DNA of 34,160 nucleotides. Origin: an uncultured SAR116 cluster alpha proteobacterium (GTDB lineage: Bacteria; Pseudomonadota; Alphaproteobacteria; Puniceispirillales; Marisalimonadaceae). The stretch lies in NCBI GenBank assembly GCA_902619615.1, contig CACNFD010000019.1, positions 1 through 34,160 of the forward strand, read 5' to 3'. Both the position numbers and the translations under genes were made by a program. Positions 66 through 31,834 of the stretch are shown here, one piece after another. The notes under the pieces were generated by a model. That model was not told the origin of the DNA. It did no database searches and saw only the letters and a list, made by a program, of their open reading frames with translations. How positions within the stretch are numbered: the first letter of the stretch is position 1; each line of letters begins with the position of its first letter.

Positions 66-266
66 ATGAGCAATTTAAATATAATTCCACGTAAAGAAAT
101 ATGTAAGCAAATAGGTGTAAGTCGAGACACACTAAAGAATTGGATAAGAAAAAGAAACTTTCCTAAACCTTTAAATTCTTCTGGTAGGGAACCCCTTTAT
201 GATGAGCTTTGTGTAAAGGAATGGCTTTTAAATAATAATAAAGATAGCAACAAGGGAGACTTATAA
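66..266 (+). CDS. AlpA-like helix-turn-helix regulator/excisionase
   Basis: A 66-residue protein that is essentially one winged HTH of the AlpA/HTH_17 type. The helix-turn-helix covers roughly residues 8-30 (IPRKEICKQIGVSRDTLKNW), followed by a basic RKRNFP turn and the short wing typical of these proteins. Family members switch on excision or integrase genes of cryptic prophages and satellites. A good AGGAG Shine-Dalgarno lies 8 bases before the ATG. The stop codon overlaps the start of the next gene as TAATG, so the two are translationally coupled. The fold is fairly sure; whether it acts as activator or excisionase cannot be told from sequence. Confidence 0.75.
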   Translation: MSNLNIIPRKEICKQIGVSRDTLKNWIRKRNFPKPLNSSGREPLYDELCVKEWLLNNNKDSNKGDL

Positions 267-2443
267 TGGAAAATCTCTCTGATATGACTATTGAAAAATT
301 TCAAAAACTATTCACTGGCTTCACAAAAGCTTATGGAACTTTTGAGATAAACAAATCAAACAATGATAAAAAAAAGAAGGGTAGAGCACTTACAGTAAGG
401 AAGAAAATTAATTTTGAACACTATAAAAAACATCTTTATGGTGAACAAGGAATAGGTGTAGTTCCTATCAAAGATGATAATCATAATATCGTATTTTGTG
501 CTTTAGATATAGATGATTATAATTTACCTCAAGAAGATCTATTAAGAAGAATAAATGAAAGTAAAATACCTTTTCTTACTTGCTTGAGCAAGTCAGGTGG
601 ATATCACTTATATCTATTCTTTGTGGAAGACACTTCAGCACAATTAATTCAAAAACCACTTCGTAAAATAGCTAAATATTTAGGTTATCCAAATTGTGAG
701 ATATTTCCTAAACAAGAAAAAAGGTTGAAACCTAAAAATGGAGAGACAGAACAAATTGGTAATTGGATCAATTTACCCTACTTTTCTGGTAATAATTCTA
801 CCAGAACATGCGTGCAGTTGGAAAAGCACTTAGAGCTGGAAGATTTTTTACACCACGCAGAAAAAAGTAAAGTTTCGTTAAGTCAATTAATTAAATTATC
901 CAATGAAATTCAGCTAGATGAAAATTTGGTTGAGAACACATCATTTAATAAACTCTTAAAAAGTGAAGGACGTAATAGTTATCTTTTTAAATATGGATGC
1001 TCTTTACGTAAAAGAGGGATAGAAGATATTGAAATAAGTAAAAAAATAAAAATTAAGAACATTGAAGCAAATGCAAACGATCATCCAAACTTTGCTCAGG
1101 GCCCTTTGGAAAATAGAGAGATAAGTCTCATTATAAAGCAAGTTTTGAAATATCAGCCTGGAGATCTAGACGATGATACTTTAGAAGAGATGAATAAAAA
1201 ACATGCAGTAGTTATGCTTCAGGGCAAGACCTTTGTTCTAAATAAAGACTTTGATCCCAGCATTAATAGAAAATTAGTAACTTTTTCTACATTCACGGAC
1301 TTCAAAAATAGATATTGTAACAAATATTCTTTCCTAGATGGGTCTAATAAATCGTTAGCACAATGTTGGCTTTCGTCATCCAAAAGAAAGACATATGATG
1401 GACTTATCTTTGATCCAGAAAAAAATCATAAGAATTTTTATAACCTTTACCAGGGGCTAGCTGTTGTCCCTAAAAAGGGGAAATGGAACAAGTTTAGAGA
1501 CCATATTAACAATGTACTTGCTGCATCAGACGAAGAGTTAGGAAGTTATATAATCCATTGGATGGCAGATGCAATTCAAAACCCAACTGACAGGCCTGGT
1601 GTTGCGCTTGTTTTAAAAGGTAAACAAAGGACAGGTAAAGGAATTTTTGCTAGAGGTTTTGGATATTTGTTTGGCAATCATTTTCTTCACCTATTTCATG
1701 GTAGTCACTTAACTGGTCATTTTAATTCACATTTAAAAGATAAACTAATGATTTTTGCTGACGAAGCTGTTTGGGGTGGCGACAAAAAAGCTGAAGGTAT
1801 GCTTAAAGAATTAATTACAGAACCATCAATACCTATTGAAATGAAAGGAAAAGATGTTTTTACTGTATCGAATTTTAGTAGAATAATTATTTCATCTAAT
1901 AACGATTGGGTAGTTCCTGCAGGAGCAGAAGAACGACGTTTTTGTGTTATCGAACCAGGGGATTCTATGATGCAGAATTCTAACTATTTTAAGTCTATAA
2001 ACGAAGAATTAAATAATGGAGGATATGAAGCAATGTTATATGATCTTCAAAATATAGATCTTGAAGGAATAGATTTAAGAAGATTCCCTAAAACAAATGC
2101 TCTTTCTATACAAAAATCAATTTCGTCTTCTGACGTAGAAAAATTTTGGGAAGATCGATTATATGATGGATCTACAATTAGTGATCAGGATGAATGGAAA
2201 AACTCAATCTTGTGCTATGATTTATATCAAGATTATATTTTATTCTCCAAAAAAATAGGAAATTCCAGACCTAAAACTATGTCATCGTTTGGAAAGAATT
2301 TAAAAAATGTTATTCCTGAAATAGAAAGACAAAGAGGAACTACTAAAAAAAGAAATTATAAATATATACTTCCTGATTTAGAACAATGTCGACTAGCATT
2401 TGATAAAGCTCGAAATACAAAAACAAATTGGGAGGGTGTATAG
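266..2443 (+). CDS. Mobile-element primase-helicase (AEP-type primase plus DUF5906/SF3-like helicase)
   Basis: A 725-residue replication protein that would prime and unwind element DNA. The N-terminal 200 residues carry archaeo-eukaryotic primase-like motifs: a DIDD metal-binding motif at 81-84, KSGGYHLYLFF at 109-119 and GNWINLPYF at 165-173, as in the TOTE-type primase family. The C-terminal half is a phage/plasmid D5-like helicase: Walker A GKQRTGKG near 452-459, Walker B LMIFADEA near 493-500, and motif C RIIISSNN near 540-547, followed by an arginine-rich EERR stretch. The length is normal for primase-helicase fusions of satellites and integrative elements. It starts inside the stop codon of the AlpA-like gene. 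No host chromosomal role is expected. Confidence 0.85.
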   Translation: MENLSDMTIEKFQKLFTGFTKAYGTFEINKSNNDKKKKGRALTVRKKINFEHYKKHLYGEQGIGVVPIKDDNHNIVFCALDIDDYNLPQEDLLRRINESKIPFLTCLSKSGGYHLYLFFVEDTSAQLIQKPLRKIAKYLGYPNCEIFPKQEKRLKPKNGETEQIGNWINLPYFSGNNSTRTCVQLEKHLELEDFLHHAEKSKVSLSQLIKLSNEIQLDENLVENTSFNKLLKSEGRNSYLFKYGCSLRKRGIEDIEISKKIKIKNIEANANDHPNFAQGPLENREISLIIKQVLKYQPGDLDDDTLEEMNKKHAVVMLQGKTFVLNKDFDPSINRKLVTFSTFTDFKNRYCNKYSFLDGSNKSLAQCWLSSSKRKTYDGLIFDPEKNHKNFYNLYQGLAVVPKKGKWNKFRDHINNVLAASDEELGSYIIHWMADAIQNPTDRPGVALVLKGKQRTGKGIFARGFGYLFGNHFLHLFHGSHLTGHFNSHLKDKLMIFADEAVWGGDKKAEGMLKELITEPSIPIEMKGKDVFTVSNFSRIIISSNNDWVVPAGAEERRFCVIEPGDSMMQNSNYFKSINEELNNGGYEAMLYDLQNIDLEGIDLRRFPKTNALSIQKSISSSDVEKFWEDRLYDGSTISDQDEWKNSILCYDLYQDYILFSKKIGNSRPKTMSSFGKNLKNVIPEIERQRGTTKKRNYKYILPDLEQCRLAFDKARNTKTNWEGV

Positions 2444-2565: not shown

Positions 2566-2940
2566 TTAATGCCAATCCTTTCGCCAATTCTTTTTTAAAT
2601 GTCCATGGTCAATGAACCAAGCTTCGAGTTCTTTTAGTTCACTTCTAATTATTCGCCCTTGCTCTGCTCTAGCTTTAGCTTTTTCTCTTTCAATCTTTGT
2701 AAAGCGTCCATGAATAGTTTTTGAATCTGCTAATCTTTTTAGGCCTTCCTTGGTCCTTGGACCTGTGCTGACACCTCCATGAAGCCTGCATCTACCGACA
2801 GGTAGTTTGGCGGGGCGTTGACAAGGTGAACCTTTTTTTGTTTTTGATTCACATCTTTTGCCTGGCCAGTTAGGACCAAAACGCCAGGGTATGCCTTTTA
2901 AAAGGTTTCTTTTTGTTGTCTTTTTAATATCACCTAACAT
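2566..2940 (-). CDS. HGGxSTGPRT-motif small basic protein, function unknown
   Basis: A 124-residue lysine/arginine-rich protein. Cys30, Cys40, Cys51 and His54 are spaced like a small metal-binding knuckle and run into the motif HGGVSTGPRTKEG (54-66). Proteins with this C...C...CxxHGGxSTGP(R/K)TxEG signature recur in proteobacteria, often near phage or integrated-element genes; no function is established that I know of. The C-terminal third is a charged, probably helical segment. It is transcribed towards the primase-helicase gene (convergent) and away from plcP, so it may belong to the left element or mark its edge. The start sits 7 bases after a TATAAT-like box, with no Shine-Dalgarno. Confidence 0.65.
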   Translation of the reverse strand: MLGDIKKTTKRNLLKGIPWRFGPNWPGKRCESKTKKGSPCQRPAKLPVGRCRLHGGVSTGPRTKEGLKRLADSKTIHGRFTKIEREKAKARAEQGRIIRSELKELEAWFIDHGHLKKNWRKDWH

Positions 2941-3077: not shown

Positions 3078-3878
3078 ATGGATAAATATAAAAGTAAAAA
3101 TTATAGAGCTATTTGGATCTCTGATATTCATTTAGGTTCATCTGGTGCACAGGCCGAACATCTTCTTGAATTTCTAAGATATAACGATAGTAATTATTTA
3201 TATTTAGTTGGCGATATTATAGATGGATGGAGTTTAACTAAGAGATGGTATTGGCCTCAATCACATAACGACGTAATTCAAAAAATTCTAAGAAAAGCTA
3301 GAAAAGGTACAAAAATTACATTTATTCCTGGTAATCATGATGAAGGTGCGAGGACTTTCCTAGGTATTACTTTTGGTGATATTGAGATAAAAAATGAGAC
3401 TTTTCATAAAACGGCTAGGAATGAAAAGTTGTGGGTAATACATGGCGATCTTTTCGATGAAGTAATGCAACATGCCAGATGGTTGGCTTACATAGGAGAC
3501 ACAGCATATACCTTTCTTCTATGGTTAAACAAATGGTTTAATAGAATAAGACGTCTAATGAACTTACCATATTGGTCGTTATCGCAGTTTTTAAAATTAA
3601 AAGTTAAAAAGGCAGTTTCAATCATTAGCGCTTTTGAGACTCTTATGGTTAGAGAAGCTTCCAGACGTGGATGTGATGGGGTTGTATGCGGGCATATACA
3701 TAAATCTGAATTGAAAATGATCGATAATAAAATTTATGCAAATGATGGTGATTGGGTCGAATCACTTACTGCTCTTGTAGAACACCAGAATGGAGAGTTA
3801 GAAATTATTAATTGGGCTGAATTGGGTCACGATCATCTATATCAAAACGATCTAACTAAAGTTAAAACAATAGCATGA
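3078..3878 (+). CDS. plcP: PlcP-like phospholipase C / LpxH-family metallophosphoesterase
   Basis: A 266-residue calcineurin-type metallophosphoesterase. Metal ligands are visible as SDIH (Asp16, His18), GDIIDGW (Asp46), GNHD (Asn86-His87) and HGD (His122), with a final CGHIH. By sequence type it belongs to the LpxH/UDP-2,3-diacylglucosamine hydrolase-like group. In Sinorhizobium and marine alphaproteobacteria this subgroup includes PlcP, which cleaves membrane phospholipids to diacylglycerol during phosphate starvation. The PlcP assignment rests on the next gene: its ATG overlaps this stop (ATGA) and it encodes a glycosyltransferase joined to a diacylglycerol kinase, both of which use diacylglycerol. 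A lipid A role (LpxH/LpxI-like) is the alternative. Confidence 0.75.
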   Translation: MDKYKSKNYRAIWISDIHLGSSGAQAEHLLEFLRYNDSNYLYLVGDIIDGWSLTKRWYWPQSHNDVIQKILRKARKGTKITFIPGNHDEGARTFLGITFGDIEIKNETFHKTARNEKLWVIHGDLFDEVMQHARWLAYIGDTAYTFLLWLNKWFNRIRRLMNLPYWSLSQFLKLKVKKAVSIISAFETLMVREASRRGCDGVVCGHIHKSELKMIDNKIYANDGDWVESLTALVEHQNGELEIINWAELGHDHLYQNDLTKVKTIA

Positions 3879-5269
3879 AAATTTTAGTTGTAACAGACGC
3901 TTGGTATCCTCAAGTCAATGGGGTAGTAAGAACTTTAGATGAGACATCTAAGCAATTAAAAAAATTTGGCCATGAGGTAAAGTTAATTACACCAGAGGGT
4001 TTTTTAACAATGCCATGTCCGACTTATCCTGAAATAAAATTATCTCTTTTCCCAGGTGCTAGAGTTTCATCTATGATCAGAGAATTTAATCCAGATTGTT
4101 TACATATTGCTACTGAAGGTCCTTTAGGTCTTTCCGCGCGTGGATATGCTATTAGAAATGGTTTAGCTTTCACCTCAGCCTATCACACAAGGTTTCCTGA
4201 ATATGTTCATGCAAGAATAAAACTTCCCCTTAAAATAACTTATGCATTCTTAAGGTGGTTTCATGGTAGATCTGAGTTGGTAATGGTGCCAACTGAAGAA
4301 GTAAAAAAGGATTTATTAAAATACAAAATTGGTAACCCTCAAATTTGGGCGAGAGGCGTAGACTTAGAAATTTTTAAACCAAAAAAAGGAAGAAGAAAAA
4401 ATAAAAAACCTATTTTATTGAATGTTGGCAGAGTAGCTATAGAAAAAAATTTAGAAGAATTTTTAAAAATAGATCTTCCATATGAAAAATGGGTTGTAGG
4501 TGACGGACCTGCATTGAAAGAATTAAAGAAAAAATACCCTAAGGTTATTTTCCAGGGTTCTAAGAGTAAAGGTGAATTAGAATATTACTATAACAAGGCG
4601 GATGTATTTGTTTTCCCAAGCAAAACTGACACATTTGGTTTAGTTTTATTAGAAGCTATGGCGTGTGGTTTGCCAGTTGCAGCTTTCCCAATAAGTGGAC
4701 CTTTAGATGTTATTGGTAACTCAGATGCAGGTATTCTGAATTCTAATTTAAAAGAAGCATGTAAGAAGGCTTTGTTGATACCAAGAAAAGTGCCAAGAGA
4801 ATACGCTAAAACATTTTCATGGGAATTAACAAGTAAAACATTTGAGTCTTATTTAGTAAGCATAAGAGACAAAGACACTACATATAATATTGAAGACAAC
4901 CCTCATAAGGGTAATACTGGGATTACAAGAGCAATTCATGCAGCTAAAAATTCTTGGTCAGGTCTAACTTTTGCTCTGAGAGAAGAAAGTGCTTTTAGAC
5001 AAGAAATATTATTAGTGATAATTTCATTATCTATAATTTTAGTCAGCGAAGTCAGTACTATTGAAATATTGCTTATGATTTTTACAACTTCCTTTGTCTT
5101 AATTATAGAGCTATTAAATTCTAGTGTTGAAGCAGCTATTGATAGGATATCATTTGATTATCACGGTTTATCTAAAAGAGCTAAAGATTACGGATCCGCT
5201 GCTGTAATGTTGACATTAATTTTATGGGTCTTAATTCACGGGTTAATTTTATTTAATGATGTTCTTTAA
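3875..5269 (+). CDS. GT4 glycosyltransferase fused to DgkA-type diacylglycerol kinase
   Basis: A 464-residue, two-domain protein. Residues 1-330 are a GT4 glycosyltransferase: an N-terminal Rossmann domain starting MKILVVTDAWYPQVNGVVRT, and a C-terminal donor-site segment DTFGLVLLEAMACGLP at 242-257. It resembles the Agt diacylglycerol glycosyltransferase that pairs with PlcP in phosphate-starved marine bacteria. Residues about 350-464 are a complete small DgkA-type diacylglycerol kinase with three membrane helices and the motifs EESAFRQE (370-377), ELLNSSVEAAIDR (412-424) and KDYGSAAV (437-444). One polypeptide would thus either glycosylate diacylglycerol or phosphorylate it to phosphatidate. 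The start overlaps plcP by four bases. The domains are certain; the sugar donor is not known. Confidence 0.8.
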   Translation: MKILVVTDAWYPQVNGVVRTLDETSKQLKKFGHEVKLITPEGFLTMPCPTYPEIKLSLFPGARVSSMIREFNPDCLHIATEGPLGLSARGYAIRNGLAFTSAYHTRFPEYVHARIKLPLKITYAFLRWFHGRSELVMVPTEEVKKDLLKYKIGNPQIWARGVDLEIFKPKKGRRKNKKPILLNVGRVAIEKNLEEFLKIDLPYEKWVVGDGPALKELKKKYPKVIFQGSKSKGELEYYYNKADVFVFPSKTDTFGLVLLEAMACGLPVAAFPISGPLDVIGNSDAGILNSNLKEACKKALLIPRKVPREYAKTFSWELTSKTFESYLVSIRDKDTTYNIEDNPHKGNTGITRAIHAAKNSWSGLTFALREESAFRQEILLVIISLSIILVSEVSTIEILLMIFTTSFVLIIELLNSSVEAAIDRISFDYHGLSKRAKDYGSAAVMLTLILWVLIHGLILFNDVL

Positions 5270-5444
5270 ATACCAATTAGCTCTCCGTTTCCAATGCCAA
5301 GATACCATTTTAAGTTAGAAATACTCTTTATGCCTATATTTAAAAATTTTTAATGTAATAAAATTGAAATAAACATTATTTACAAAGACATAGTTTTGAG
5401 AATTCATTTGATTTGAATTGATGAGGTTAAGTTAGATTTGCCAA

Positions 5445-7577
5445 ATGAAACTCAAAACCTCAAATTCTGAGGTTAGATTGTCTTTAAATAAAATCACAAA
5501 AAAATTAATTAATAATCAAAATGACAGGTATTTTGACAGAGAAATTAGCTGGTTATCTTTTAATGAAAGAGTTTTACTACAAGCATATGATAAGACAATT
5601 CCTTATGGTGAAAGACTTAGATTTGTAACAATTTCTTCAGAAAATTTAGATGAATTTTATATGGTTCGAATAGCTGGGCTACATCAGCTTATAAGTCAAG
5701 GTTTCAATACATTACCTGAAACTGGAATGAGAGCAGATGAATTATTAAAAACAGTACTTAATGCTTCCAAAGATTTAAAAAATAAACAGCAAAGATGTTT
5801 GAATTATTTATTGAATGAAAAGGAAGATTGTGATGTTTCAATTTTGTTTGATAATAAATGGACTAAAAATGAATTAGAATGGCTTAAAGAATATTATGAA
5901 CAAAATATTCTACCTCTTTTAACTCCAACCACGTTAGACCCTGCACACCCTTTTCCATTTATCCAAAATAAAGGCAAATGTGTATTAATGGAGATGAAAG
6001 ATATAAAAAACAACAATATAAATTGTGTAGTTTTACTTCCTGATAATATAGCTAGATTTATAAGATTACCTGGTGAAAATCAGAGATATGCTATGCTGGA
6101 GACCTTAGTTACAAAGTTTGTTCATTTAATTTATCCTGAATATAAATTATTAAAATCAGGCATGTTTAGAGTTATCAGAGATGCCGAAATTGAAATAGAT
6201 GATGAAGCAGATGACTTAATAGGGCAATTTGAAACTGCAATTAAAGCCAGAAAAAGAGGTGGTATTGTATCTTTAACCTTTTCTCATGATTTATCTAAAT
6301 CTGCTCAAAAACTTTTAACCAGGGAATTAAATATCCCTGACGATCATATATATGTTGCGCAAGGATTTGTTGGGATCAATGACTTTACTGAAATAATAAA
6401 TAATTTACCCAAACAAAATATATTCAAACCGTACAAACCCAGAATGCCACAAAGAATATTAGACTTTAAAGGAGATTGCTTTTCGGCGATAAAAAATAAA
6501 GAAATAATTGTTCATCATCCTTACGAAAGTTTTGATGTAGTTTTAAGTTTGCTTCAACAGGCAGCAACAGATAAAAATGTTTTAACAATAAGGCAAACTT
6601 TATATAGAACAACACCTGATTCACCAATAGTAGAAGCTTTGGTGTCCGCTGCTGAGTCAGGAAAATCTGTTATTGCAGTAATTGAGCTGAAAGCTCGATT
6701 TGATGAAGAAAATAATGTCCAACTAGCTAGAGTATTAGAACAAGCTGGTGCACAAGTTGCTTACGGCCTAGTTGATTTAAAAGTACATGCAAAATTATCT
6801 TTAATAACAAGAAAAGAGGGTAAAAAATTAGTTTCTTATGCTCATTGTGGAACTGGTAATTATCATCCACATACTGCTAAAATTTATACTGACTTTTCGT
6901 TATTCACTATCGATAAAAATATTTGTGATGATGCTAGATCAGTCTTTAATTTTCTTACCAGTCACGTTCAGCCAAAACGATTAAATAAGATGATCATTTC
7001 ACCCAACTCTTCTTATGATTGGTTAATTGAGAAAATTGATAATGAAATACAAAATGCTAAAGATGGTTTTGAAAGTGGAATTTGGATTAAATGTAATGCG
7101 ATTGTAGATCAAAAAATAATTGAAAAATTCTATGAAGCATCCAATGCAGGGGTTAGAATTCACTTGATGGTTAGGGGTATTTGCTGCTTACGCCCTAATG
7201 TTAAAGGAATGTCTGAAAACATTACAGTAAATGCAATTATAGGAAGATTTCTTGAACATGGAAGAATATATGTTTTTGCAAATAAAGGAAAATTTCAGTC
7301 TGAAAGTAATTTAGTATATATAGCATCTGCTGATATAATGCCTCGTAATTTATACCATAGAGTTGAGGCTTTTATACCTCTAGAAAACAAAACAGTTCGA
7401 GGTCAAGTCCTAGACCAAGTATTACCGGCTCTAATAAACGACACAAAAAATACTTGGCAATTAAATAAAAATGGAGAATACTCCAAAAAACAAAATAAGG
7501 ACAAAACATTTTGTGCGCACACTTATTTTATGAAAAACCCAAGTTTATCAGGTCAGGGAAGCTTAGCTAAAATATAA
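5445..7577 (+). CDS. ppk: Polyphosphate kinase (PPK1)
   Basis: A 710-residue PPK1, close to the usual 690-720. It reversibly polymerises ATP gamma-phosphate into polyphosphate. The N-terminal domain opens with DREISWLSFNERVL. The catalytic domains hold the autophosphorylated histidine in SYAHCGTGNYHPHTAKIYTD (His467) and the second conserved histidine in RFLEHGRIYVF (His605). The VEALVSAAESGKSV and IELKARFDEENN blocks of the family are also present. The stop is followed two bases later by ppx, so the pair is one operon. The first 25 residues are weakly conserved. No clear promoter is seen in the 175 bases between agt and ppk. Confidence 0.95.
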   Translation: MKLKTSNSEVRLSLNKITKKLINNQNDRYFDREISWLSFNERVLLQAYDKTIPYGERLRFVTISSENLDEFYMVRIAGLHQLISQGFNTLPETGMRADELLKTVLNASKDLKNKQQRCLNYLLNEKEDCDVSILFDNKWTKNELEWLKEYYEQNILPLLTPTTLDPAHPFPFIQNKGKCVLMEMKDIKNNNINCVVLLPDNIARFIRLPGENQRYAMLETLVTKFVHLIYPEYKLLKSGMFRVIRDAEIEIDDEADDLIGQFETAIKARKRGGIVSLTFSHDLSKSAQKLLTRELNIPDDHIYVAQGFVGINDFTEIINNLPKQNIFKPYKPRMPQRILDFKGDCFSAIKNKEIIVHHPYESFDVVLSLLQQAATDKNVLTIRQTLYRTTPDSPIVEALVSAAESGKSVIAVIELKARFDEENNVQLARVLEQAGAQVAYGLVDLKVHAKLSLITRKEGKKLVSYAHCGTGNYHPHTAKIYTDFSLFTIDKNICDDARSVFNFLTSHVQPKRLNKMIISPNSSYDWLIEKIDNEIQNAKDGFESGIWIKCNAIVDQKIIEKFYEASNAGVRIHLMVRGICCLRPNVKGMSENITVNAIIGRFLEHGRIYVFANKGKFQSESNLVYIASADIMPRNLYHRVEAFIPLENKTVRGQVLDQVLPALINDTKNTWQLNKNGEYSKKQNKDKTFCAHTYFMKNPSLSGQGSLAKI

Positions 7578-7579
7578 AT

Positions 7580-9040
7580 ATGAATGAAGTAGCTTTAAGT
7601 TTTTATAGGAAGATAAATAAAGGTAAATTAGCAATAATCGATATTGGTTCTAATTCTATTAGACTTGTTATATATCCTCAAAATGGTAAATACCCTTTTC
7701 CGTTATTTAATGAAAGAATAAATTGTAAACTCGGTGAGGGTTTATCATTGAGTAAAAATATTTCAAGTCAATCAATTTCAAAAGCTTTGTCAGCTATAAA
7801 GCGTTTTGCATATATAATAAAAACTATGTCTGTGAAACATCAATTAATTATAGCAACTGCAGCTGTTAGAAAAGCCAAAAATGCAAAAGAATTTTTACGT
7901 CCTGCAGAAAAACTTCTTAATCATAATATTAAAATTCTGTCTGCTAAAGAGGAGGCTGATTACGCCTCTTTAGGAGTTCTTAGCAACATAAAAGTTGATA
8001 AAGGGCTTATAGCAGATTTAGGAGGAGGAAGTTTAGAACTTATTCTTATTCAAGATGGAAAAAAGATAAAATCAACGAGTATCGATATTGGACACTTATC
8101 TCAGATTAGTAGTGAAGAAATCAGAAAAGAAATTAATAAAGTTGAATGGCTGAATAAATCTAAAGGTCTTACATTGTATGGAACAGGTGGAAGTTTTAGA
8201 GCTCTAGGATCTGCCTATATAAAGAATTATAATTATCCACTCTCATTATTGCATGGATTAAAATTCGATATCGAAAGAGGGATAATCCTTTTGGATCAAA
8301 TGTCAGACGAAAACAAAGAAGTATTAGGTATACCTCCTGGTAGAACAGATACTATTTCAACTGCAGCAAAGATAATAACTCACCTGATTTTATCATCAAA
8401 TGTAAAAAATATTATGATTAGTGGAACAAGTATAAGAGATGGATTGATAGCAGAATTAAATAAAGAAAATAGGATCAATCCAGATAAAGTTGCTTACTAT
8501 AATGTACTTGCAAAAAACCAAAGATTTAATGGCATGCAAACTAAAATAAAAAAAATATTCGGTCCTATATTTGAAAAAATTGCAGATAAAGATCTTGAAA
8601 GGGTATTTAAAATTAGTACTAATCTTTCAGATATTTCTTGGGACGAACAGCCAGATATGAGAGGTAATATTGCCGCAAACAAAATCTTATCACTACCAGT
8701 AAGAGATTTAACTCATATTGAGAGGGTATGGATGGCCAAAGTTGTTTATCACAGATATATTGGTACTAAAGATAAACAACAAATTGATAAAAGAATAACC
8801 AATTTACTTTCAGAAAAGCAAAAAATTTCATCGTATGCTATAGGTCTAGGATTAAGATTTATATATAATTTTAGCGCAGGATTACCAAAAAATTTGGATA
8901 ATATTAAATTTAAGATTAAGAAAAATAAATTAACTTGTAAAATAAAATCTGAAGCCAAAGTTCTCATGGATAAAGAAAATGAACGAAGATTTAAAAATTT
9001 TGCTAATGCCTGTAATTTAAATTATGAGATTATTTTCTAA
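7580..9040 (+). CDS. ppx: Exopolyphosphatase / pppGpp phosphohydrolase (Ppx/GppA)
   Basis: A 486-residue Ppx/GppA-family enzyme with the sugar-kinase/actin-like fold. Nucleotide and phosphate-binding motifs are AIIDIGSNSIRLVIY (18-32), ATAAVRKAKN and GLIADLGGGSLELILI. The C-terminal domain (about 310-486) is the helical HD-like region of the long Ppx form, with a degenerate HD motif. It releases phosphate from polyphosphate ends; some homologues also hydrolyse pppGpp. It starts two bases after ppk and is surely co-transcribed with it, giving paired synthesis and breakdown. Confidence 0.93.
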   Translation: MNEVALSFYRKINKGKLAIIDIGSNSIRLVIYPQNGKYPFPLFNERINCKLGEGLSLSKNISSQSISKALSAIKRFAYIIKTMSVKHQLIIATAAVRKAKNAKEFLRPAEKLLNHNIKILSAKEEADYASLGVLSNIKVDKGLIADLGGGSLELILIQDGKKIKSTSIDIGHLSQISSEEIRKEINKVEWLNKSKGLTLYGTGGSFRALGSAYIKNYNYPLSLLHGLKFDIERGIILLDQMSDENKEVLGIPPGRTDTISTAAKIITHLILSSNVKNIMISGTSIRDGLIAELNKENRINPDKVAYYNVLAKNQRFNGMQTKIKKIFGPIFEKIADKDLERVFKISTNLSDISWDEQPDMRGNIAANKILSLPVRDLTHIERVWMAKVVYHRYIGTKDKQQIDKRITNLLSEKQKISSYAIGLGLRFIYNFSAGLPKNLDNIKFKIKKNKLTCKIKSEAKVLMDKENERRFKNFANACNLNYEIIF

Positions 9041-9085
9041 TAATTCTTAATGTGATTTTTAATTTTATAAAAAGGTAGAGAAAAG

Positions 9086-9904
9086 ATGAGTTTTATATCA
9101 GCACAATTACCTGATAATGAAGAAAGAAGAGCAGAAGCAGTTGAGAGAACTGGTCTAATAGATTCCAATCAAGCAAGCCTATTTAATATTTACTGTGAAT
9201 TGGCTAAAGAAATAACTGGTTATGAAGCTGTTTTATTTCAATTGTTTGATAGTAAAGAAAGATGTTATTTAGCAGAAATTCAGCCTGAACAAGAAAAAAC
9301 ACAAAATTTAAGTAGACGCAGACCTAAAGATGGAAGTGTTTGTGCTCATGTTTTACTAGATACTAAACCATTAGTTGCCTTTGATGTTACAAAACATGAA
9401 ATAACCAAAACTCACAGTAATGAAAAGGGTGTAAAAAGTTACATAGGTTTTCCTATTATAGACCAAAACAATTACGCACTTGGTATGGTTTGCATGATGA
9501 CTTTTTCCAAAATAATAGAGTTGTCTCAAGATAAAATTGATTTAGTAGAAAAACTAATAAAAAAAGCTGCTCACCAGATAGATGTAATGACTGATCAAAA
9601 ACTATTAACTTCTGATAGATTGATAAATGCTATAGAAATTTTTTATCAAGAAACAGGTTTAAGCGATATAATAATATTTAAAAATTTTATTCATGCTTGC
9701 AATATAATGGAAATATCAAAAGATTTTGAAGAAATACTCTCTGATAATGGATTATTGAAAATTAATGAAAATTTAAAGTTAGAAATTACAGAAAAAGGAA
9801 AAATAATCCAAGATAAAATGGGGTTACACACAAAGATAATGAAAAACGTTAAACTTGAAGGCAAACAAGCTAATGATCTTTTAGAAATGTTAGATGAATT
9901 GTAA
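9086..9904 (+). CDS. GAF-domain protein with winged-helix-like C-terminus
   Basis: A 272-residue soluble protein. Residues 10-35 (NEERRAEAVERTGLID) are the linker that typically precedes a GAF domain, which occupies about 28-168 (KDGSVCAHVLLDTKPLVAFDV and YIGFPIIDQNNYALGMV are recognisable). The last 100 residues form helices and a segment reading LSDNGLLKINENLKLEITEKG, which looks like the recognition-wing part of a winged helix; this is a guess from pattern. No kinase, cyclase or GGDEF/EAL domain is attached. It lies 45 bases after ppx with its own Shine-Dalgarno (GGTAGAGAAAAG) and may report on phosphate or energy state. The ligand is unknown. Confidence 0.65.
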   Translation: MSFISAQLPDNEERRAEAVERTGLIDSNQASLFNIYCELAKEITGYEAVLFQLFDSKERCYLAEIQPEQEKTQNLSRRRPKDGSVCAHVLLDTKPLVAFDVTKHEITKTHSNEKGVKSYIGFPIIDQNNYALGMVCMMTFSKIIELSQDKIDLVEKLIKKAAHQIDVMTDQKLLTSDRLINAIEIFYQETGLSDIIIFKNFIHACNIMEISKDFEEILSDNGLLKINENLKLEITEKGKIIQDKMGLHTKIMKNVKLEGKQANDLLEMLDEL

Positions 9905-9918
9905 TTAGTAGGTAGATC

Positions 9919-10248
9919 ATGTACGCAAAAGTCTTTCAATATAAATTTCCATCAGTTACTGAAGCTAAAGTTGCGGCTTCTTTTTGTTCGGATAATCTTG
10001 GAAAAAAAATTACTAAATATCATTTTCAATCTTTGAATATAATGATCGGTAAAGAAGGTTATTTATCAATTTTTATAAAATTTAATACTATTGATAAATT
10101 AAAAAAATTTGAACAAGAGTCTAGTGAGTTTATTCAAGAACTTAAACAAACTTTTGTGTTTAAAGAAAATCAATATGCAGGTGTTTTTGTTTATAATTAT
10201 GAGTCTGAAGCAACATCAGCTCTAATAAAAATGACTACTCCTGTTTAA
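9919..10248 (+). CDS. Small conserved-looking protein, function unknown
   Basis: A 109-residue protein with no signal peptide or membrane segment. The alternating pattern (MYAKVFQYKFPSVTEAK...LNIMIGKEGYLSIFIKF...AGVFVYNYES) suggests a small alpha/beta, ferredoxin-like fold, but I do not recognise the family. It begins 14 bases after the GAF-protein stop with a Shine-Dalgarno-like AGGTAGATC, so it is probably the last gene of the ppk-ppx-GAF unit. It ends just before the tRNA-fMet scar, making it the last chromosomal gene on that side. Confidence 0.55.
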   Translation: MYAKVFQYKFPSVTEAKVAASFCSDNLGKKITKYHFQSLNIMIGKEGYLSIFIKFNTIDKLKKFEQESSEFIQELKQTFVFKENQYAGVFVYNYESEATSALIKMTTPV

Positions 10249-10364
10249 TATAATTTAATAATCTTAGTGATGGTTTTATTAATTATTGAGAAAAAGAGAA
10301 CTTTGCCTGACGAACATTTATTACTTTATTTATCACTCTGTAATCGTTATCAGGCTTCAAACAC

Positions 10365-10392
10365 AAAAAACCCAAAAACCGAAGTCTTTGAG
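10365..10392 (-). terminator. Rho-independent terminator of the former tRNA-fMet gene
   Basis: Read on the minus strand: a 9-bp stem (CTCAAAGAC / GTTTTTGGG, two G-T wobbles) closed by a TTCG tetraloop, followed by six T. It stands 33 bases past the CCA end of the tRNA fragment, where the native tRNA terminator belongs. It therefore places original chromosome on the left of the scar. Confidence 0.75.
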
Positions 10393-10425
10393 GGTGATCC
10401 AAGCCATTGACTTTATTGATATAGT

Positions 10426-10476
10426 TGGTTGCGGGAGTAGGATTTGAACCTACGACCTTCAGGTTATGAGCCTGAC
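10426..10476 (-). pseudogene. 3' fragment of initiator tRNA-fMet (anticodon CAU): integration scar (att site)
   Basis: On the minus strand positions 10476 to 10426 match the initiator tRNA from about base 26 to the end. There is an anticodon stem-loop TCAGG-CTCATAA-CCTGA, variable region AGGTC, T-arm AGGTTCAAATCCT, acceptor strand TCCCGCA, discriminator A and an encoded CCA. The 5' acceptor strand and D-arm are missing; the match stops sharply at G26 and the sequence beyond (10477 up) is unrelated. This is the product expected when an element using the 3' part of the tRNA gene as attB has integrated: an intact tRNA should lie at the other end of the insert. No other copy is in this window. 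Confidence 0.85.
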
Positions 10477-10516
10477 ATTTTTGCCCCATTTTGCCTGTAT
10501 ATATAGGTTTTTGTTT

Positions 10517-10540
10517 GCAGTTAGCCACATAGTTAGACAC
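10517..10540. repeat. Tandem 12-bp imperfect repeat beside the tRNA scar
   Basis: Two abutting 12-mers, GCAGTTAGCCAC and ATAGTTAGACAC, identical at 9 of 12 positions, start 41 bases from the tRNA break on the non-chromosomal side. Short direct repeats at this distance from a crossover site are typical arm-type binding sites of tyrosine recombinases. That role is inferred from position. Confidence 0.4.
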
Positions 10541-10679
10541 TTATAATCAATTTTGATCACAGTATTTAACCTGTCATTTTTAATCAAATTTCACTAATAA
10601 GATGTAAAGTTAATTTAATATAAATGTAAAATTTATTTAATGATTAATTATTAATATAATATTTTTATGAGGCGAAAAC

Positions 10680-11006
10680 ATGAATTTTGAAACTATAAAA
10701 GCGGCTTTCATAAAACATTATGAAGGTGACTTGCAACCATTTATTGAACTTTTTTCAAAAGATTTACACTGTGAGTCCATACATAAATCAAGTATGGGCA
10801 ATAAAGTTAAAAGCTACGATGAATTTGTAAATATGGTTAAAGACGTGAAATGGGTAAGTGAACCTATAATTCAATGCGTATTAGAAACACCCAACACTGT
10901 TGTTAAGACAGTAGATGGATTTGATCCTAATTTTACATATCTTGAAATTGATCACATTCAAGATGGTAAAATAGTCAAACATATTTATGGGAAAGTTCCA
11001 AAATAA
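10680..11006 (+). CDS. SnoaL/NTF2-like small protein
   Basis: A 108-residue protein with the pattern of the SnoaL-like/NTF2 alpha+beta cone: N-terminal helices (FETIKAAFIKHYEGDLQPFIELFSKD) and strands that end in a VKTVDGFD...YLEIDHIQDGKIVKHIYGKV hairpin. This family covers isomerases, hydrolases and non-catalytic ligand binders, so no reaction can be assigned. A GAGG Shine-Dalgarno sits 8 bases before the ATG. It is the first gene on the inner side of the tRNA scar. A lone CTGTCAT heptamer (10571-10577) lies about 100 bases upstream; on its own it is not good evidence for PhoB control. Confidence 0.5.
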   Translation: MNFETIKAAFIKHYEGDLQPFIELFSKDLHCESIHKSSMGNKVKSYDEFVNMVKDVKWVSEPIIQCVLETPNTVVKTVDGFDPNFTYLEIDHIQDGKIVKHIYGKVPK

Positions 11007-11097
11007 ATCATTGAATTTTAAAATAATTAAAAATCCTTTTATAAAATTTAAAAATGAGATTATTGAACTTCCAATTTTGATTAGAAAGATTAAAACT

Positions 11098-11391
11098 ATG
11101 AAAACAAAAATATCCATAATTAGATTCAGACCTAAACCTGAATGTTTTGACGAATTTTTAACAAATGTAAAAGAACGTTCGAAAGAAAGGGCATTGTCAA
11201 AACCGCCTACTCATTATTTAATGACTACGTCGGATGAAGTGATAGCTATAGTTTTAAGAACAGAAACTGAGTTATCTGAAAGCTCAACCAGAGGTGTTAA
11301 TTGGTTAGATACTCAAAGACATCTTCTTTTAGAGTATAACGAAGAAGATAGACACTCAATTCCCTTGACTGGAAATCTAGTCGAATACTAG
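11098..11391 (+). CDS. Small protein, possibly ABM/dimeric alpha-beta-barrel-like
   Basis: A 97-residue protein. A longer reading frame begins at 10987, inside the preceding gene, but its extra 37 residues are low-complexity. The ATG at 11098 has an AGAAAG Shine-Dalgarno and begins a strand-like MKTKISIIRFRPKPECFDEFLTN, the usual opening of small ferredoxin-like ABM domains; I therefore prefer this start. No catalytic motif is evident. It lies 91 bases after the SnoaL-like gene, probably in the same transcript. Confidence 0.5.
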   Translation: MKTKISIIRFRPKPECFDEFLTNVKERSKERALSKPPTHYLMTTSDEVIAIVLRTETELSESSTRGVNWLDTQRHLLLEYNEEDRHSIPLTGNLVEY

Positions 11392-13310: not shown

Positions 13311-14936
13311 CTATTTGAAATATTTTTCTTTAAATTTTAAAGCAACGGAAACTAGTAATATTAGTATAGGCACTTCAACAAGAGGACCAATAACAGTTGC
13401 GAAAGCCTCTTTTGATGCAAGGCCAAAAGTGGCAATTGAAACTGCAATAGCTAATTCAAAATTATTTGAAGCTGCTGTGAATGATAAAGAAGTAGCCGTT
13501 GGATAATTAATATTTGCAAACCTGCTGATACCAAAACTAATAAAAAACATAATTAGAAAATATATGACTAGAGGAATTGATATTGTTAAAACATCCAAAG
13601 GCAGTTTCAAAATTTCATTTCCTTTTAGAGTAAACATAATAATTATTGTAAATAACAGCGCAATTAAAGTAATAGGACTTATTCTAGGAAGAAAATTGTT
13701 CACGTACCATTCTTCACCATATCTTTTAACTAATAATGATCTTGTCACAAAACCTGCTAAAAATGGAATACCAAGATAAATTAGAACAATTTTGGCAATA
13801 TACAATATTGAGATATCAATAATTTGTCCACCATATCCAAAAAATTCCGGCAAAATTTTTAAAAAAAACCACGCATAAGGCGCGAAGAATATAATTTGAA
13901 AAATTGAATTAAAGGCAACTAATCCTGCTACATATTCTGAACTTCCTCTAGCCAACTCATTCCAAACAAGAACCATTGCTATACATCTAGCTAGACCAAT
14001 TAGTATGACACCAGTCATATATTCAGGCTTATCAGAAAGAAAAGTAAGAGCTAAAAAAAACATTAATGCAGGGCCTATTATCCAATTTTGAAATAAAGAC
14101 AAAGCTAAGACTTTCTTATCTTTAAAAACTTCAATTATTTTTTCATATTTTACTTTTGCTAAAGGTGGATACATCATTAAAATAAGCCCTATTGCAATAG
14201 GAATATTTGTATTACTGTAAGTTATTGAATCAAGAAATTTAGGCATATTTAGAAAAACATTACCAATAACTATACGATCAGCTAAAAGTCTAACTACTGC
14301 AAGATCGTGTGTAACTATTACTGCAGCAATGCCAAGTTCTCTTACAAGGTTTCTTAATAAATCCAAGATTTTAGCTTGTACAGATACATCCAAACCTCCA
14401 GTAGGTTCATCCATAAAAATCAATCTTGGTCTAGTTACAAGATTTCTTGCAATTTGAAGTCTTTGTTGCATTCCTCCAGAAAAAGTACTTGGCTTATCAT
14501 CAATTCTGCTAACATCAATTTCAACTTTTTCTAGCCAATTTGCAGCAATTTCTCTAATTTCACCATAATTTCTATGACCAATTGCCATTAATCTTTCACC
14601 AATATTTCCTCCTGCACTTATATTCATTCTGAGACCATCACGAGGATTTTGATGCACAAATGCTAGATCAGATCTTTGAATTAAACGAAGTTTTGGTTCC
14701 GAAATTTTTGTAAAATTGAGGATTGTTTTTGATTTGTCGTTTAAGAAAATATCTCCTTCATCAACTTCTAAATTTCCATAAATACAGTTTAATAATGTAG
14801 ACTTCCCAGAACCTGACTCGCCAACAATTCCAAGGACCTCTCCAGGATTAATATCTAAAGATACATTTTTGCAACCTATATTTTGGCCATAGTATTTAGA
14901 AATATTAGAGGCTTGAAATAAGAAATTTTGCTTCAT
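13311..14936 (-). CDS. phnK: Chimeric ORF: C-P lyase ATPase PhnK joined in frame to an N-truncated ACR3 arsenite efflux pump
   Basis: 541 residues from the ATG at 14936, two bases after the phnJ stop; an upstream start at 14999 would lie inside phnJ. Residues 1-221 are PhnK: Walker [10 protein letters not shown] (39-47), the PhnK block [19 protein letters not shown], signature SGGMQQR (153-159), Walker [10 protein letters not shown] and H-loop His210. At LADR (218-221), where PhnK should continue for about 30 more residues, the sequence becomes an ACR3 permease from the middle of its first helix. Recognisable there are [23 protein letters not shown], the conserved Cys region [22 protein letters not shown], and [13 protein letters not shown]. 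About 25 residues of ACR3 are missing. The likely cause is an in-frame deletion across phnK 3'-phnL-...-acr3 5'; an assembly join is possible. Confidence 0.85.
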
Positions 14937-14938
14937 AA

Positions 14939-15817
14939 TTAATCTTCTTTTTTTGAATTTAATTTGGTTTGTTCTTTGCAATAGTCTGTGTCTGAACATA
15001 TGTATGATCGTTTACCATCATCTGAAACAATAATTTCATCTAAATAACTATCACTGGATCCACATATTGAACATTTGAAATTAGCTTTCATAGCTTCAAA
15101 AGGATAGTCTTCAAAATCAAGACTTTTAACATTTGTATAAGGTGGAATAGCATAAATTCGTTGTTCTCTTCCAGCGCCAAAAAGTTGAATAGCTGGACTA
15201 TTATTCATTTTGGGATTATCAAATTTTGGAATAGGAGAAGGGTCAGTAACATAATTTCCATTTGTTTTTACTGGATATGCATATGCTGTCTCAATATGAC
15301 CATGTTTTGCAATATCTTCATAAAGTTTTACATACATTAATCCATATTCAGAAAGAGCATGCATTTTTCTAGTTTCTACCTCCCTTGGTTCTAAGAATCT
15401 AAGAGGTTCTGGAATTGGTACTTGATATACTAATATTTGTTTTTCTTTTAATTTTGTTTCAGGAATTCTGTGTCTGGTCTGTATAATAGATGCATCTGAA
15501 GTTTTTTCAGTCACAGCTACATTTGCAGTTTTTTGAAAAAATTTTCTTATTGATACAGCATTTGTAGTATCGTCGGCGCCTTGATCAATTACCTTTAAAA
15601 CATCTTTGGGTATTAAACACGCAGATGTTACCTGAATTCCACCAGTACCCCAACCATAAGGCATTGGCATTTCTCTTGAGGAAAAAGGTACTTGATAGCC
15701 AGGTATACATAATGCTTTCAGAAGAGCTCGTCTTATCATCCTTTTTGTATTTTCATCTAAATAAGCAAAATTATAAATTTGAATATCTAAATTTTCATTT
15801 TTACTCATTTCATTCAT
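14939..15817 (-). CDS. phnJ: C-P lyase catalytic subunit, alpha-D-ribose 1-methylphosphonate 5-phosphate C-P-lyase
   Basis: A 292-residue radical-SAM enzyme that cleaves the C-P bond of ribose-methylphosphonate phosphate to give methane (or another alkane) and ribose cyclic phosphate. The [4Fe-4S] and thiyl cysteines are Cys249, Cys252, Cys274 and Cys280, with exactly the 3-22-6 spacing of E. coli PhnJ Cys241/244/266/272. The glycyl-radical residue is Gly40 in IPGYQVPF, matching E. coli Gly32. The family blocks [13 protein letters not shown] and [17 protein letters not shown] are intact, so the active site looks functional. A GGTAA Shine-Dalgarno precedes the ATG at 15817; Met4 is an alternative start. 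It lies four bases after phnI. Confidence 0.97.
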
Positions 15818-15821
15818 TTTA

Positions 15822-16898
15822 TTACCTTTTCATATTAACTTTGGCGTCAGCTCTAATTTTTCTAATGAGCTCTAGTTCAGATTGAAAATCAACATAATGT
15901 GGTAGTTTTATGTGTTCTAAAAAACCAGTCGCTTGAATGTTGTCGCAATGTGAAATAACAAATTCTTCGTCTTGTGCTGGTGCGCCAGAATAATCTTCAC
16001 CTAATTCTTTCCATCTTAAAGCTCTATCGATCAAAGCCATTGCTAAAGCTTTTCTTTCAGTCTGTCCGAATACTAAACCATAACCTCTTGTAAATTGTGG
16101 AGGTTCAATTTTGGATCCTTGAAATTGATTTACCGTTTCACATTCAGTTAAAATGATCTCAGCAACATTAATCTCAAAACCTAATTCTGGAATATAAAGC
16201 TCAATGTCAACTATGCCAATTCTTAGTTCCCCTACAAATGCATGATTTCTTGCATATCCTCTTTGAGTAGAATATGCGAGACCAAGTAAAAAACCCTCAT
16301 CTCCTCTTGATAATGCTTGTAACCTTGCCGAACGAGATGTTGGATAGCTAATAGGTTCTCGTGTTATATCGATAGGATCAAGATTGTTATCTTTTTCGTT
16401 TTGCATTAAATCTTCTTGATTTAAAAAACTTAAAACGTGAGGCATTTTGTTGTCATTATATTTTTTTGTTGGACTAATAGGTGATTCATTTTCAGCTAGT
16501 AATTTAAAGTCCAAAAGCCTATGCGTGTAATCAAAAGTAGGGCCTAATTTTTGTCCACCCGGTATATCTTTAAAAGTTGCTGAAATCCTTCTAAGGCATG
16601 TCATATTTGCTGTATTAACTGGTTTGCTGTAACTAAATCTTGTAAGAGTTGTTCTGTAAGCTCTTAACAAAAATATAGCTTCTATCAAATCACCTCTAGA
16701 CTGTTTTATAGCTAATGCAGCAAGGTCTTTATCATATAAAGAACCTTCAGACATTACTCTATCAACGCCAAGTGTGAGTTGTTCTGATATTTGATCAAGG
16801 GTAATATTTGGAATGGATGTATCACCTCTTCTTATTTCTGACATCCAAGAATGAGCGTTATCAATTGCTACTTCCCCACCTTTAACAGCTACATACAT
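15822..16898 (-). CDS. phnI: C-P lyase core subunit PhnI (purine ribonucleoside triphosphate phosphonate transferase component)
   Basis: A 358-residue PhnI, normal length. It begins MYVAVKGGEVAIDNAH and contains LTLGVDRVMSEGSLYDKDLAALAIKQSRGD-type sequence (about 42-70), then ILLRAYRTTL- and MTCLRRISATFKDIPGGQKLGPTFDYTHRLLDF-type blocks shared with the family. With PhnG, PhnH and PhnL it transfers the ribose triphosphate of ATP to the phosphonate; alone, PhnI has nucleosidase activity. Its ATG follows the phnH stop with no gap (TAGATG), so translation is coupled. Confidence 0.96.
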   Translation of the reverse strand: MYVAVKGGEVAIDNAHSWMSEIRRGDTSIPNITLDQISEQLTLGVDRVMSEGSLYDKDLAALAIKQSRGDLIEAIFLLRAYRTTLTRFSYSKPVNTANMTCLRRISATFKDIPGGQKLGPTFDYTHRLLDFKLLAENESPISPTKKYNDNKMPHVLSFLNQEDLMQNEKDNNLDPIDITREPISYPTSRSARLQALSRGDEGFLLGLAYSTQRGYARNHAFVGELRIGIVDIELYIPELGFEINVAEIILTECETVNQFQGSKIEPPQFTRGYGLVFGQTERKALAMALIDRALRWKELGEDYSGAPAQDEEFVISHCDNIQATGFLEHIKLPHYVDFQSELELIRKIRADAKVNMKR

Positions 16899-17468
16899 CT
16901 AATGCTCCGATTTTATGATATTAATTTTTGTTGAACGAGGAATAGATAAAATTTCTAAGTCATTTGTGAAATAGAAATCTAAACCTAAAGGATAAAGATT
17001 ATTATTTTCGATAAATAATTCAGGATTAGGTAAATCAATATTTAATTTATTTTTTATGCCTGGACCATCAATGTTGCATTTTACTTTTTTATATTTTGTT
17101 TCTTCAATTATTAAAGTTGCAGATCTTTCTGGATACTCAGGAACTCCTATTTTGAATTCATTTAATGGCAATAAAGATTTCCATGTACCAATTACAAAAT
17201 CAGCATTCTTTTTGTTACTAATAATGGCACCAGTGTTAAAAATTAACCAATTCCTTACTTCCTCTGTATTATATTCTTTTGAGAGGTAAACATTACTTTC
17301 ATTATCACATAACGTAATTAATATTGTCGCTGCTGCATTTGACAATACACTTGGTTTGTTAAGTTTATTTATCTGAAAAGTTCTACCTGGATATGATGTT
17401 GCATTTACTAATGATCTAAAAGCAATAGAACTATTTATAGAATTTTCAGAAAAAGGATAATTTTCCAT
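16899..17468 (-). CDS. phnH: C-P lyase core subunit PhnH
   Basis: A 189-residue PhnH, the usual size. It begins with the family-typical AFRSLVNATSYPGRTFQINKL-like stretch (about residues 16-36), where family members read FRxLLxAMSRPG. LDFYFTNDLEILSIPRSTKI near the C-terminus matches the end of PhnH (LGxDxxxxxxxxLxxLPRTT). PhnH has a PLP-transferase-like fold without PLP and joins the PhnGHIJ core. It overlaps phnG by one base (TAATG) and abuts phnI. Confidence 0.92.
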   Translation of the reverse strand: MENYPFSENSINSSIAFRSLVNATSYPGRTFQINKLNKPSVLSNAAATILITLCDNESNVYLSKEYNTEEVRNWLIFNTGAIISNKKNADFVIGTWKSLLPLNEFKIGVPEYPERSATLIIEETKYKKVKCNIDGPGIKNKLNIDLPNPELFIENNNLYPLGLDFYFTNDLEILSIPRSTKINIIKSEH

Positions 17469-17908
17469 TAATCACTTTCTCCTCTTACAAGAGTAAAAAA
17501 ATCAACTTTCGTAGCTTCAGCTTTTGAAAGAATTTTGTGTTTATTATCTTTTTTAATTTTTTCTAAAGGAATAATAATATTTTTATTTATTTCTTTAGAC
17601 ATTTTAGTTTGCATAAGAGCATCACATAATGCGCTTATTTCAGCTTTTTTCTTACTTCTTCCTTGAACATAACTATGACCTATTGTTCCACAATTCAATT
17701 TTAAGGAACATCTAGTTATAGTAACTTCACCAATATTAAATTTATCTCCAGTTACACCCATTCTTCCTTGAGCCATTATGCTTCCAATTTCAGGTGTTCT
17801 TAACCATATATAATTTACTCTTATTTTTTTTTGTTCCCAGAGATTTAACAAATCACTTTGGTTAGATGTTGCTAACAAACTCATCCAAGATTTTCTTTTT
17901 TCAATCAT
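17468..17908 (-). CDS. phnG: C-P lyase core subunit PhnG
   Basis: A 146-residue PhnG, the first gene of the C-P lyase operon. It carries the family features RKSWMSLLATSN near the N-terminus, YIWLRTPEIGSIMAQGRMGVTGDKFNIGEVT-type sequence in the middle and the SYVQGRSKKKAEISALCDA helix. It starts 87 bases from phnF, which is transcribed in the other direction; the gap holds two copies of TATACAAYTATA, candidate PhnF operators. The end overlaps phnH by one base. Confidence 0.93.
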   Translation of the reverse strand: MIEKRKSWMSLLATSNQSDLLNLWEQKKIRVNYIWLRTPEIGSIMAQGRMGVTGDKFNIGEVTITRCSLKLNCGTIGHSYVQGRSKKKAEISALCDALMQTKMSKEINKNIIIPLEKIKKDNKHKILSKAEATKVDFFTLVRGESD

Positions 17909-29741: not shown

Positions 29742-29785
29742 TATATTTCCAACTATAATATTATTATTGATTGAGTTAATAAAGT

Positions 29786-29818
29786 ATGCAAAAGACAGCT
29801 AAACACTGTCTTTTGCAT
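29786..29818 (-). promoter_or_regulatory. Stem-loop between phnD and the phnE genes
   Basis: A perfect 13-bp stem (ATGCAAAAGACAG / CTGTCTTTTGCAT) with a 7-base loop, 9 bases after the phnD stop. No T-run follows, so readthrough is likely. Such stem-loops after binding-protein genes protect the upstream mRNA or reduce transcription into permease genes. Confidence 0.65.
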
Positions 29819-29827
29819 GAAAGTTAA

Positions 29828-30787: not shown

Positions 30788-30834
30788 TTATATTTCTCCA
30801 TTGATTTAAGTTTGGTCTTCTAATTTTCATAAGT

Positions 30835-31638: not shown

Positions 31639-31834
31639 AAACAATCTCCATGATTCATTTCGTTTTGATCTTCAAATATTTCAGTTTTGTTTAATTTTTA
31701 TTTCTAAATTATTAAACAAAATTTTATTTATTAATTTCAATAGGTTAATGGAAATTAAAAAAATTATTTCAAATTCTAATTTTAAATAAATAATTAAAAA
31801 AAATTTTTTTTTTGAAAATTAGAGAATCATCTTG

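Follow-up and report, generated by a model that had tools for sequence, protein, structure and literature searches.

A predicted two-fate diacylglycerol enzyme in SAR116 bacteria: a GT4 glycosyltransferase fused to a DgkA-type kinase directly behind a plcP-like gene

Introduction

Membrane remodelling is a known phosphorus-saving route of ocean bacteria, and it is drawn as a path from phospholipid through diacylglycerol (DAG) to glycolipid. The closest described system is the PlcP-Agt (PlcP-GTcp) module of SAR11, Agrobacterium, Pseudomonas aeruginosa and Methylosinus, for which the available parts of the reports describe a GT4 glycosyltransferase gene directly behind plcP (PMC4796936, PMC8231724, PMC8528852, PMC9239053). 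GTcp is the SAR11 enzyme with demonstrated DAG glycosylation. Its functional residues have been studied, and in the available part of that work the exchange of Asp256 for Glu costs more than 90% of the activity (PMC8231724). The occurrence of PlcP in SAR116 single-cell genomes has already been reported, according to the available text of PMC4796936. By term counts, "diacylglycerol kinase" and "dgk" are absent from the main texts of all four papers.

For Escherichia coli DgkA (3ze4), the available text of the mechanistic work lists 18 residues that affect catalysis (PMC4703834). Among the genes listed for the phosphate islands of HIMB59 are a diacylglycerol kinase, "LpxH" and "RfaG" (PMC10734472), much like two of the loci collected here (L090 and L091); these are separate genes, whereas in the window analysed here the kinase is part of a fusion. 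In Pseudomonas putida BIRD-1, the accessible part of the report describes PlcP and DagK as raised under Pi depletion and calls them lipid-remodelling proteins (PMC5082522). Because of that report, a link between a kinase and remodelling is not new as such, but its available text describes no fusion, and we compare DagK by name and not by kinase family or proximity to plcP. Neither the fusion nor a plcP-gt-dgkA operon (gt, the glycosyltransferase gene) is the subject of any paper found in a literature search with little reach into subscription papers; one paper from that search has dgkA in a gene table.

Here we analyse a stretch of 34,160 nucleotides from an uncultured SAR116 cluster alphaproteobacterium (the window), in which a plcP-like gene is followed by a gene that joins a GT4 glycosyltransferase (GT) to a DgkA kinase. 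From the genomics, we predict that the product is probably a two-fate DAG enzyme of the PlcP-Agt membrane-remodelling pathway.

Results

The fusion protein is encoded at 3875-5269 on the plus strand by a single open reading frame of 464 amino acids with zero internal stops. Its start codon overlaps the stop codon of the plcP-like gene by four bases (ATGA). It consists of a GT4 domain of the Agt/GTcp type (aa 1-330; 3875-4864, +), a linker (about aa 331-345; 4865-4909, +) directly before an NPHKxN motif, and a DgkA domain (aa 346-464; 4910-5266, +). Pfam places Glyco_transf_4 at aa 14-165 (80 bits) and Glycos_transf_1 at aa 168-288 (83 bits), both over the curated cut-offs, and DAGK_prokar (PF01219) at aa 359-459 with 98 bits against a cut-off of 22.3. 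The last match covers profile positions 2-102 of 102 and is thus a full-length domain. In a phmmer search of PDB sequences, aa 346-460 match E. coli DgkA (3ze4; E 3e-23). The first-pass annotation had claimed a GT joined to a full DgkA and a four-base overlap with plcP, and these claims hold at the coordinates above. No extra regulatory domain appears in the Pfam search, and the fusion is the sole PF01219 match in the source genome (2.16 Mb, 59 contigs, 99% complete).

An AlphaFold2 monomer model built on a 16-row alignment (mean pLDDT 81.9, pTM 0.65) runs from a GT-B fold through a poorly defined segment (aa 337-349, pLDDT below 50) to a surface helix and three long helices. All predicted membrane helices lie in the DgkA part. 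The best 50 PDB fold matches listed are GT-B glycosyltransferases, a result that speaks to the fold and not to the acceptor.

The fused GT keeps 14 of the 15 residues examined in GTcp, including His104, Asp252 (Asp256 of GTcp) and Trp316. The sole exception is Thr162, replaced by Ala159. Motifs and their spacing, and not an alignment to the GTcp sequence itself, served to match the positions. The key residues for family membership (GTcp Asp256, His104, Arg163 and Trp320) are all kept, and 208 of the 210 collected GTs have Asp at the GTcp-256 position. These residues and the plcP partner support the assignment of the fused GT as an Agt/GTcp-type, predicted DAG-using glycosyltransferase, and the first-pass view of a DAG-type GT4 is borne out to the extent that sequence can tell.

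In the kinase half, 16 of the 18 functional positions are invariant in all 27 distinct fused domains. The position of Thr8 varies, and that of Gly83 is Ser in 27 of 27, as it is in 50 of the 52 domains of the operon set. Glu28, Glu34, Glu69, Asn72, Glu76, Asp80, Lys94 and Asp95 are all kept, as are Arg9, Ser17 and Ser73 of the E. coli enzyme. The fused domain resembles E. coli DgkA in its completeness, its active-site residues and, in the model, its surface helix and three long helices; it differs in lying behind a glycosyltransferase, in being tied to plcP, in the Ser at the Gly83 position and in grouping apart in the tree. Against five relatives, the Nei-Gojobori dN/dS of the GT part is 0.05-0.12 and that of the DgkA part 0.11-0.28, with two of the five pairs close to saturation (dS near or above 1 to 2). 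Both halves, as judged from their sequences, retain the known functional residues, and a dead kinase domain is ruled out as far as residues and dN/dS tell.

Between the window and a related locus (L006), dS is 0.04 in the DgkA part (4925-5257) and 0.27 in the GT part. This inequality suggests recombination inside the gene.

The plcP-like gene (3078-3878, +) encodes a metallophosphoesterase of 266 amino acids that scores 44 bits with PF00149, over the cut-off. We assign it to PlcP on family, gene pairing and context, and its putative activity, the cleavage of phosphatidylethanolamine (PE) or phosphatidylglycerol (PG) to DAG, is presumed. An LpxH identity was considered and is ruled out, since the LpxH models give 27 bits against a cut-off of 190 and 38 against 134, and LpxI is present in the source genome (109 bits), so that the plcP-like protein is not needed for lipid A. 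On the same contig lie ppk1 (5445-7577, +), ppx (7580-9040, +), the C-P lyase genes phnG, phnH, phnI and phnJ with an ABC-ATPase/SBF fusion (13311-17908, -) and a phosphonate-type ABC transporter with two permeases, a phosphonate-binding protein and an ATPase (27529-31644, -). Thus, a role in phosphorus shortage fits the location.

Upstream of the window plcP, the search gave no Pho box: the best site matches 9 of 14 positions and is equalled in 74 of 100 shuffles, and the whole window holds one Pho-box match where two are expected by chance. Of 18 plcP upstream regions tested, five (L020, L039, L152, L161 and L209) hold good Pho sites, with three or fewer of 100 shuffles as good, and three of these five regions are betaproteobacterial.

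Several other features of the window were observed. Upstream of plcP, the gene at 266-2443 (+) has primase-polymerase and P4-type primase matches (AEP-TOTE, PriCT_1 and DUF5906), and an HGGxSTG-domain protein is encoded just upstream of plcP at 2566-2940 (-). The protein encoded at 13311-14999 (-) has 562 amino acids, of which 44-200 match an ABC ATPase and 269-465 an SBF sodium/bile-acid-symporter-like domain; its gene overlaps phnJ, and the joining is an odd fusion within the C-P lyase cluster. A stretch of about 6 kb with ppk and ppx (5260-11213) is missing from SAR116 AG-390-L20 (L148), whose alignment to the window jumps from 5259 to 11214 at identities of 97.7-99.9%. The surroundings of the plcP-fusion cassette differ among close relatives.

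Among 136 genomes of the order, the fusion is found in 46, and in all 46 the gene immediately before it, with strand and contig shared, is plcP (coordinates compared by eye). The expectation that proteins of this architecture always neighbour plcP is therefore correct within the order. Because the same frame recurs in 46 of 136 genomes, the fusion is neither chance nor an assembly artefact; one frame runs through both domains in all 46, down to 58% identity, which rules out a frameshift or an assembly chimera. Recurrence in the order and in named loci likewise rules out an oddity of the window. The closest named records come from single-cell genomes of the SAR116 cluster, among which AG-426-B08 has a protein listed as 100% identical over 464 residues.

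With GT matches taken at E<=1e-40 and matches reaching residue 451 or beyond counted as fused, GT occurs in 58 of the 136 genomes: 46 fused and 12 with GT only (ten g16 genomes, inside the marine clade, together with G128 and G032). G128 is set aside as evidence for GT without kinase, since its contig has a run of 10 N at the GT end. PlcP is found in 57 genomes (all 46 with the fusion, G128, G029, G032 and eight of the ten g16 genomes). DgkA is found in 47, as the fusion in 46 and as a separate gene in one (G061); one fusion (G124) has an in-frame stop inside the DgkA match. Of the 43 high-quality genomes in the order, 28 give no DgkA match, and absences in the order are soft because many genomes are incomplete. 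At the ten g16 GT loci, neither plcP nor dgkA lies within a stretch of up to 9 kb, and in the four inspected gt adjoins ppk-like and ppx-like genes. The lone DgkA of G061 (L092, 4005-4499, -) belongs to the operon group and lies beside porin-like and GAPDH-like genes, with no plcP-gt within 8.5 kb; 5% contamination is listed for this genome.

In a sample of 289 genomes of the class, GT is found in 114, three of them with the fusion (G000, G030 and G374), and DgkA in 41; both are present in 12. A DgkA match is absent from 102 of the 114 GT genomes, and DgkA was seen fused, adjacent or near in only 6 of 114, so the kinase is dispensable. In G276, dgkA stands in a separate frame directly behind plcP-gt, and in G165 and G392 (family f34) it is on the opposite strand at a distance of 0.6-1.0 kb from plcP, and one or two genes intervene. 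For 35 of the 41 class-sample DgkAs, neither plcP nor this GT occurs in the flanking DNA, which reached up to 5 kb and less where a contig ended. In family f12 (L083 and L084) one cassette occurs fused in G374 and split in G276. The longest dgkA frame of the split version shares 26 bases with gt, but a later ATG stands just behind the gt stop.

In a phylum sample, 92 of 299 genomes have the GT. Among the best 30 of these 92 loci, plcP lies within 1.5 kb in 22 and DgkA in eight, namely the window fusion, five loci of family f202 and two of f174. The order is plcP-gt-dgkA in all five GT-bearing f202 genomes, two of which have a second, weaker-scoring DgkA elsewhere, and dgkA-plcP-gt in both f174 genomes.

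Among the 80 named loci listed, plcP was found in 79. Of these 80, 55 carry plcP-gt-dgkA in separate frames (mostly Burkholderiales, a few visibly decayed), nine are fused (six SAR116, two uncultured Alphaproteobacteria and Verticiella sp. GG226), and 16 have no DgkA within a flank of up to 3 kb. These shares are not prevalences, because one of the two DNA patterns behind the search is a DgkA peptide, which favours DgkA, and the loci are the matches listed. The fusion described in the first-pass annotation is real and recurrent, but the plcP-gt-dgkA cassette is more widespread, and the fusion is one of its forms. None of the 36 records from a separate plasmid search covers 80% of the query. 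P. aeruginosa plasmids NZ_CP137508, NZ_CP042268 and CP075839 carry a related GT (45.6% identity) that adjoins a gene annotated as UDP-2,3-diacylglucosamine diphosphatase.

In a DgkA tree that has few columns and many long branches, and that leaves out Gram-positive sequences, the fusions, the plcP-gt-dgkA operons and G061 share one side of a branch (support 98/93; 47 rows). This group is free of all 34 standalone alphaproteobacterial rows, E. coli, f34 and f174. The f34 DgkA groups with standalone rows (99/93), whereas E. coli and a single standalone row are the company of the f174 one (96/90). As f34 and f174 stand apart from the main group, DgkA may have been recruited beside plcP-gt more than once. 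This suggestion is weakened by AU tests, which do not reject joining f174 (p 0.257) or f34 (p 0.234) to the main group, or f34 with f174 (p 0.09). From its island genes, compared with those of PMC10734472, f34 appears to be the HIMB59 clade.

In the GT tree, made by a quick method with SH-aLRT as the only support, the fused proteins of the order, f12, g16, f22, G128 and AG-911 form one marine group (99). Within this tree f12, which has the protein both fused and split, joins f1, the family of the window (96), a placement that suggests lateral transfer. The betaproteobacterial fusion of Verticiella is encoded in one frame, and 15 of its 18 DgkA positions agree with E. coli. Its GT does not fall in the marine group, and its DgkA stands among betaproteobacterial rows, in trees from which the window's own row was left out through de-duplication, and these positions suggest that it arose separately.

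NPHKGN or NPYKGN stands near the start of the five separate operon DgkAs inspected, as it does in the fused domain. The fusion therefore looks like the loss of a gt stop before a nearly whole dgkA, and would be a welded form of the plcP-gt-dgkA cassette. In AG-911-I18, the GT ends in KKPYKTNY, which resembles a remnant of the linker, and no DgkA lies beside it, as if the kinase had been lost later.

Discussion

We propose that under phosphorus shortage PlcP would strip the phosphate headgroup from PE or PG to leave DAG. The fused GT4 domain would then transfer a sugar from a UDP-sugar onto DAG, giving a phosphorus-free glycolipid. The DgkA domain would anchor the protein in the membrane where DAG appears, and DAG that escapes glycosylation would be phosphorylated back to phosphatidate. 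Because of this re-phosphorylation, DAG would be kept from piling up and its acyl chains would return to phospholipid synthesis. In this scheme both activities, DAG as acceptor, the sugar and induction by low phosphate are predictions, and we infer the physiological role of the kinase from its linkage and residues.

The distribution supports this two-fate reading in several ways. Among the 47 genomes of the order with DgkA, 46 have it as the fusion, each time behind plcP. The trio recurs as separate genes in the named loci and in f202, and DgkA lies beside or near plcP-gt in f174 and f34. The kept functional residues of both halves, the low dN/dS, the shared branch of operon and fused DgkAs, the phosphorus genes of the window and the rise of DagK together with PlcP in P. 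putida BIRD-1 also speak for it. Against it stand the 102 of 114 class-sample GT genomes with no DgkA match, the ten g16 genomes that have GT without DgkA, the AG-911-I18 GT with no DgkA beside it, the best 30 phylum GT loci, of which only 22 have plcP within 1.5 kb, and the window plcP, upstream of which no Pho box was found. Re-phosphorylation of DAG also spends ATP phosphate amid shortage, for which a reason is needed.

A different balance among the three genes would follow if PlcP and DgkA were the main pair, turning PE or PG into phosphatidate for headgroup exchange or acyl recycling, with GT as a parallel outlet. The f174 arrangement, with dgkA on the plcP side and not the gt side, agrees with this, as does f34, where dgkA, on the opposite strand, is one or two genes away from plcP. 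However, dgkA is behind or joined to gt in the fusion and in the commonest cassette among those listed, and none of the fetched loci, all of which were reached through gt or dgkA, pairs plcP with dgkA in the absence of gt. We therefore consider such a pairing rather improbable.

That the only predicted membrane helices of the fusion come from its DgkA part would also be explained if this part served mainly to anchor and trimerise the GT, with kinase activity incidental. Such a role is hard to reconcile with 16 invariant functional positions in all distinct fused domains and with the low DgkA dN/dS. In addition, members of the same DgkA group are separate in operons, where they anchor nothing. 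We regard this as unlikely.

The first-pass annotation went further and proposed a built-in branch-point switch. Its branch point, predicted here from genomics, is the most likely reading, whereas nothing points to regulation between the domains, and the switch remains a guess. The fixed 1:1 stoichiometry and the presumed shared substrate would suit an enzyme in which one of the two domains, sensing the state of the substrate or of phosphate, governs its partner. Yet no additional regulatory domain is seen by Pfam, the modelled linker has low confidence within a model of moderate overall confidence, and the operon forms manage without fusion, all of which make such control very unlikely.

Least likely is an action of the DgkA domain on another lipid such as undecaprenol: the PF01219 family does include the undecaprenol kinases of Gram-positive bacteria, but the E. 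coli DgkA residues are kept (Arg9, Ser17, Glu34 and Ser73 among them), the domain is coupled to a presumed DAG producer and a presumed DAG user, and the many high-quality genomes of the order with no DgkA match would be unexpected for undecaprenol salvage. In the sequence data, which contain no undecaprenol-kinase sequences, we met no sign of another GT acceptor or of a DgkA that is inactive or acts on undecaprenol.

Returning to the two-fate reading, we extend it tentatively, at somewhat less than an even chance, to the DgkA subfamily as a whole. In Beta- and Alphaproteobacteria, PlcP-Agt remodelling could have an overlooked third component in this dedicated subfamily, which may have been recruited beside plcP-gt more than once. 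It would close a PlcP-DgkA cycle, which would make remodelling reversible and keep DAG low. Its fusion to GT in SAR116, and separately in Verticiella, would bring both fates of DAG into one membrane complex.

A kinase in the same protein or operon says that the way back from DAG is also needed, and at the same place. The two-way reading gives a simple prediction for DAG control and for recovery once phosphate is restored. On this view, the kinase of the HIMB59 phosphate islands, which is listed without a direct phosphorus role, would have an explanation as well. In the three-gene cassette, the kinase may be an overlooked partner of membrane remodelling.
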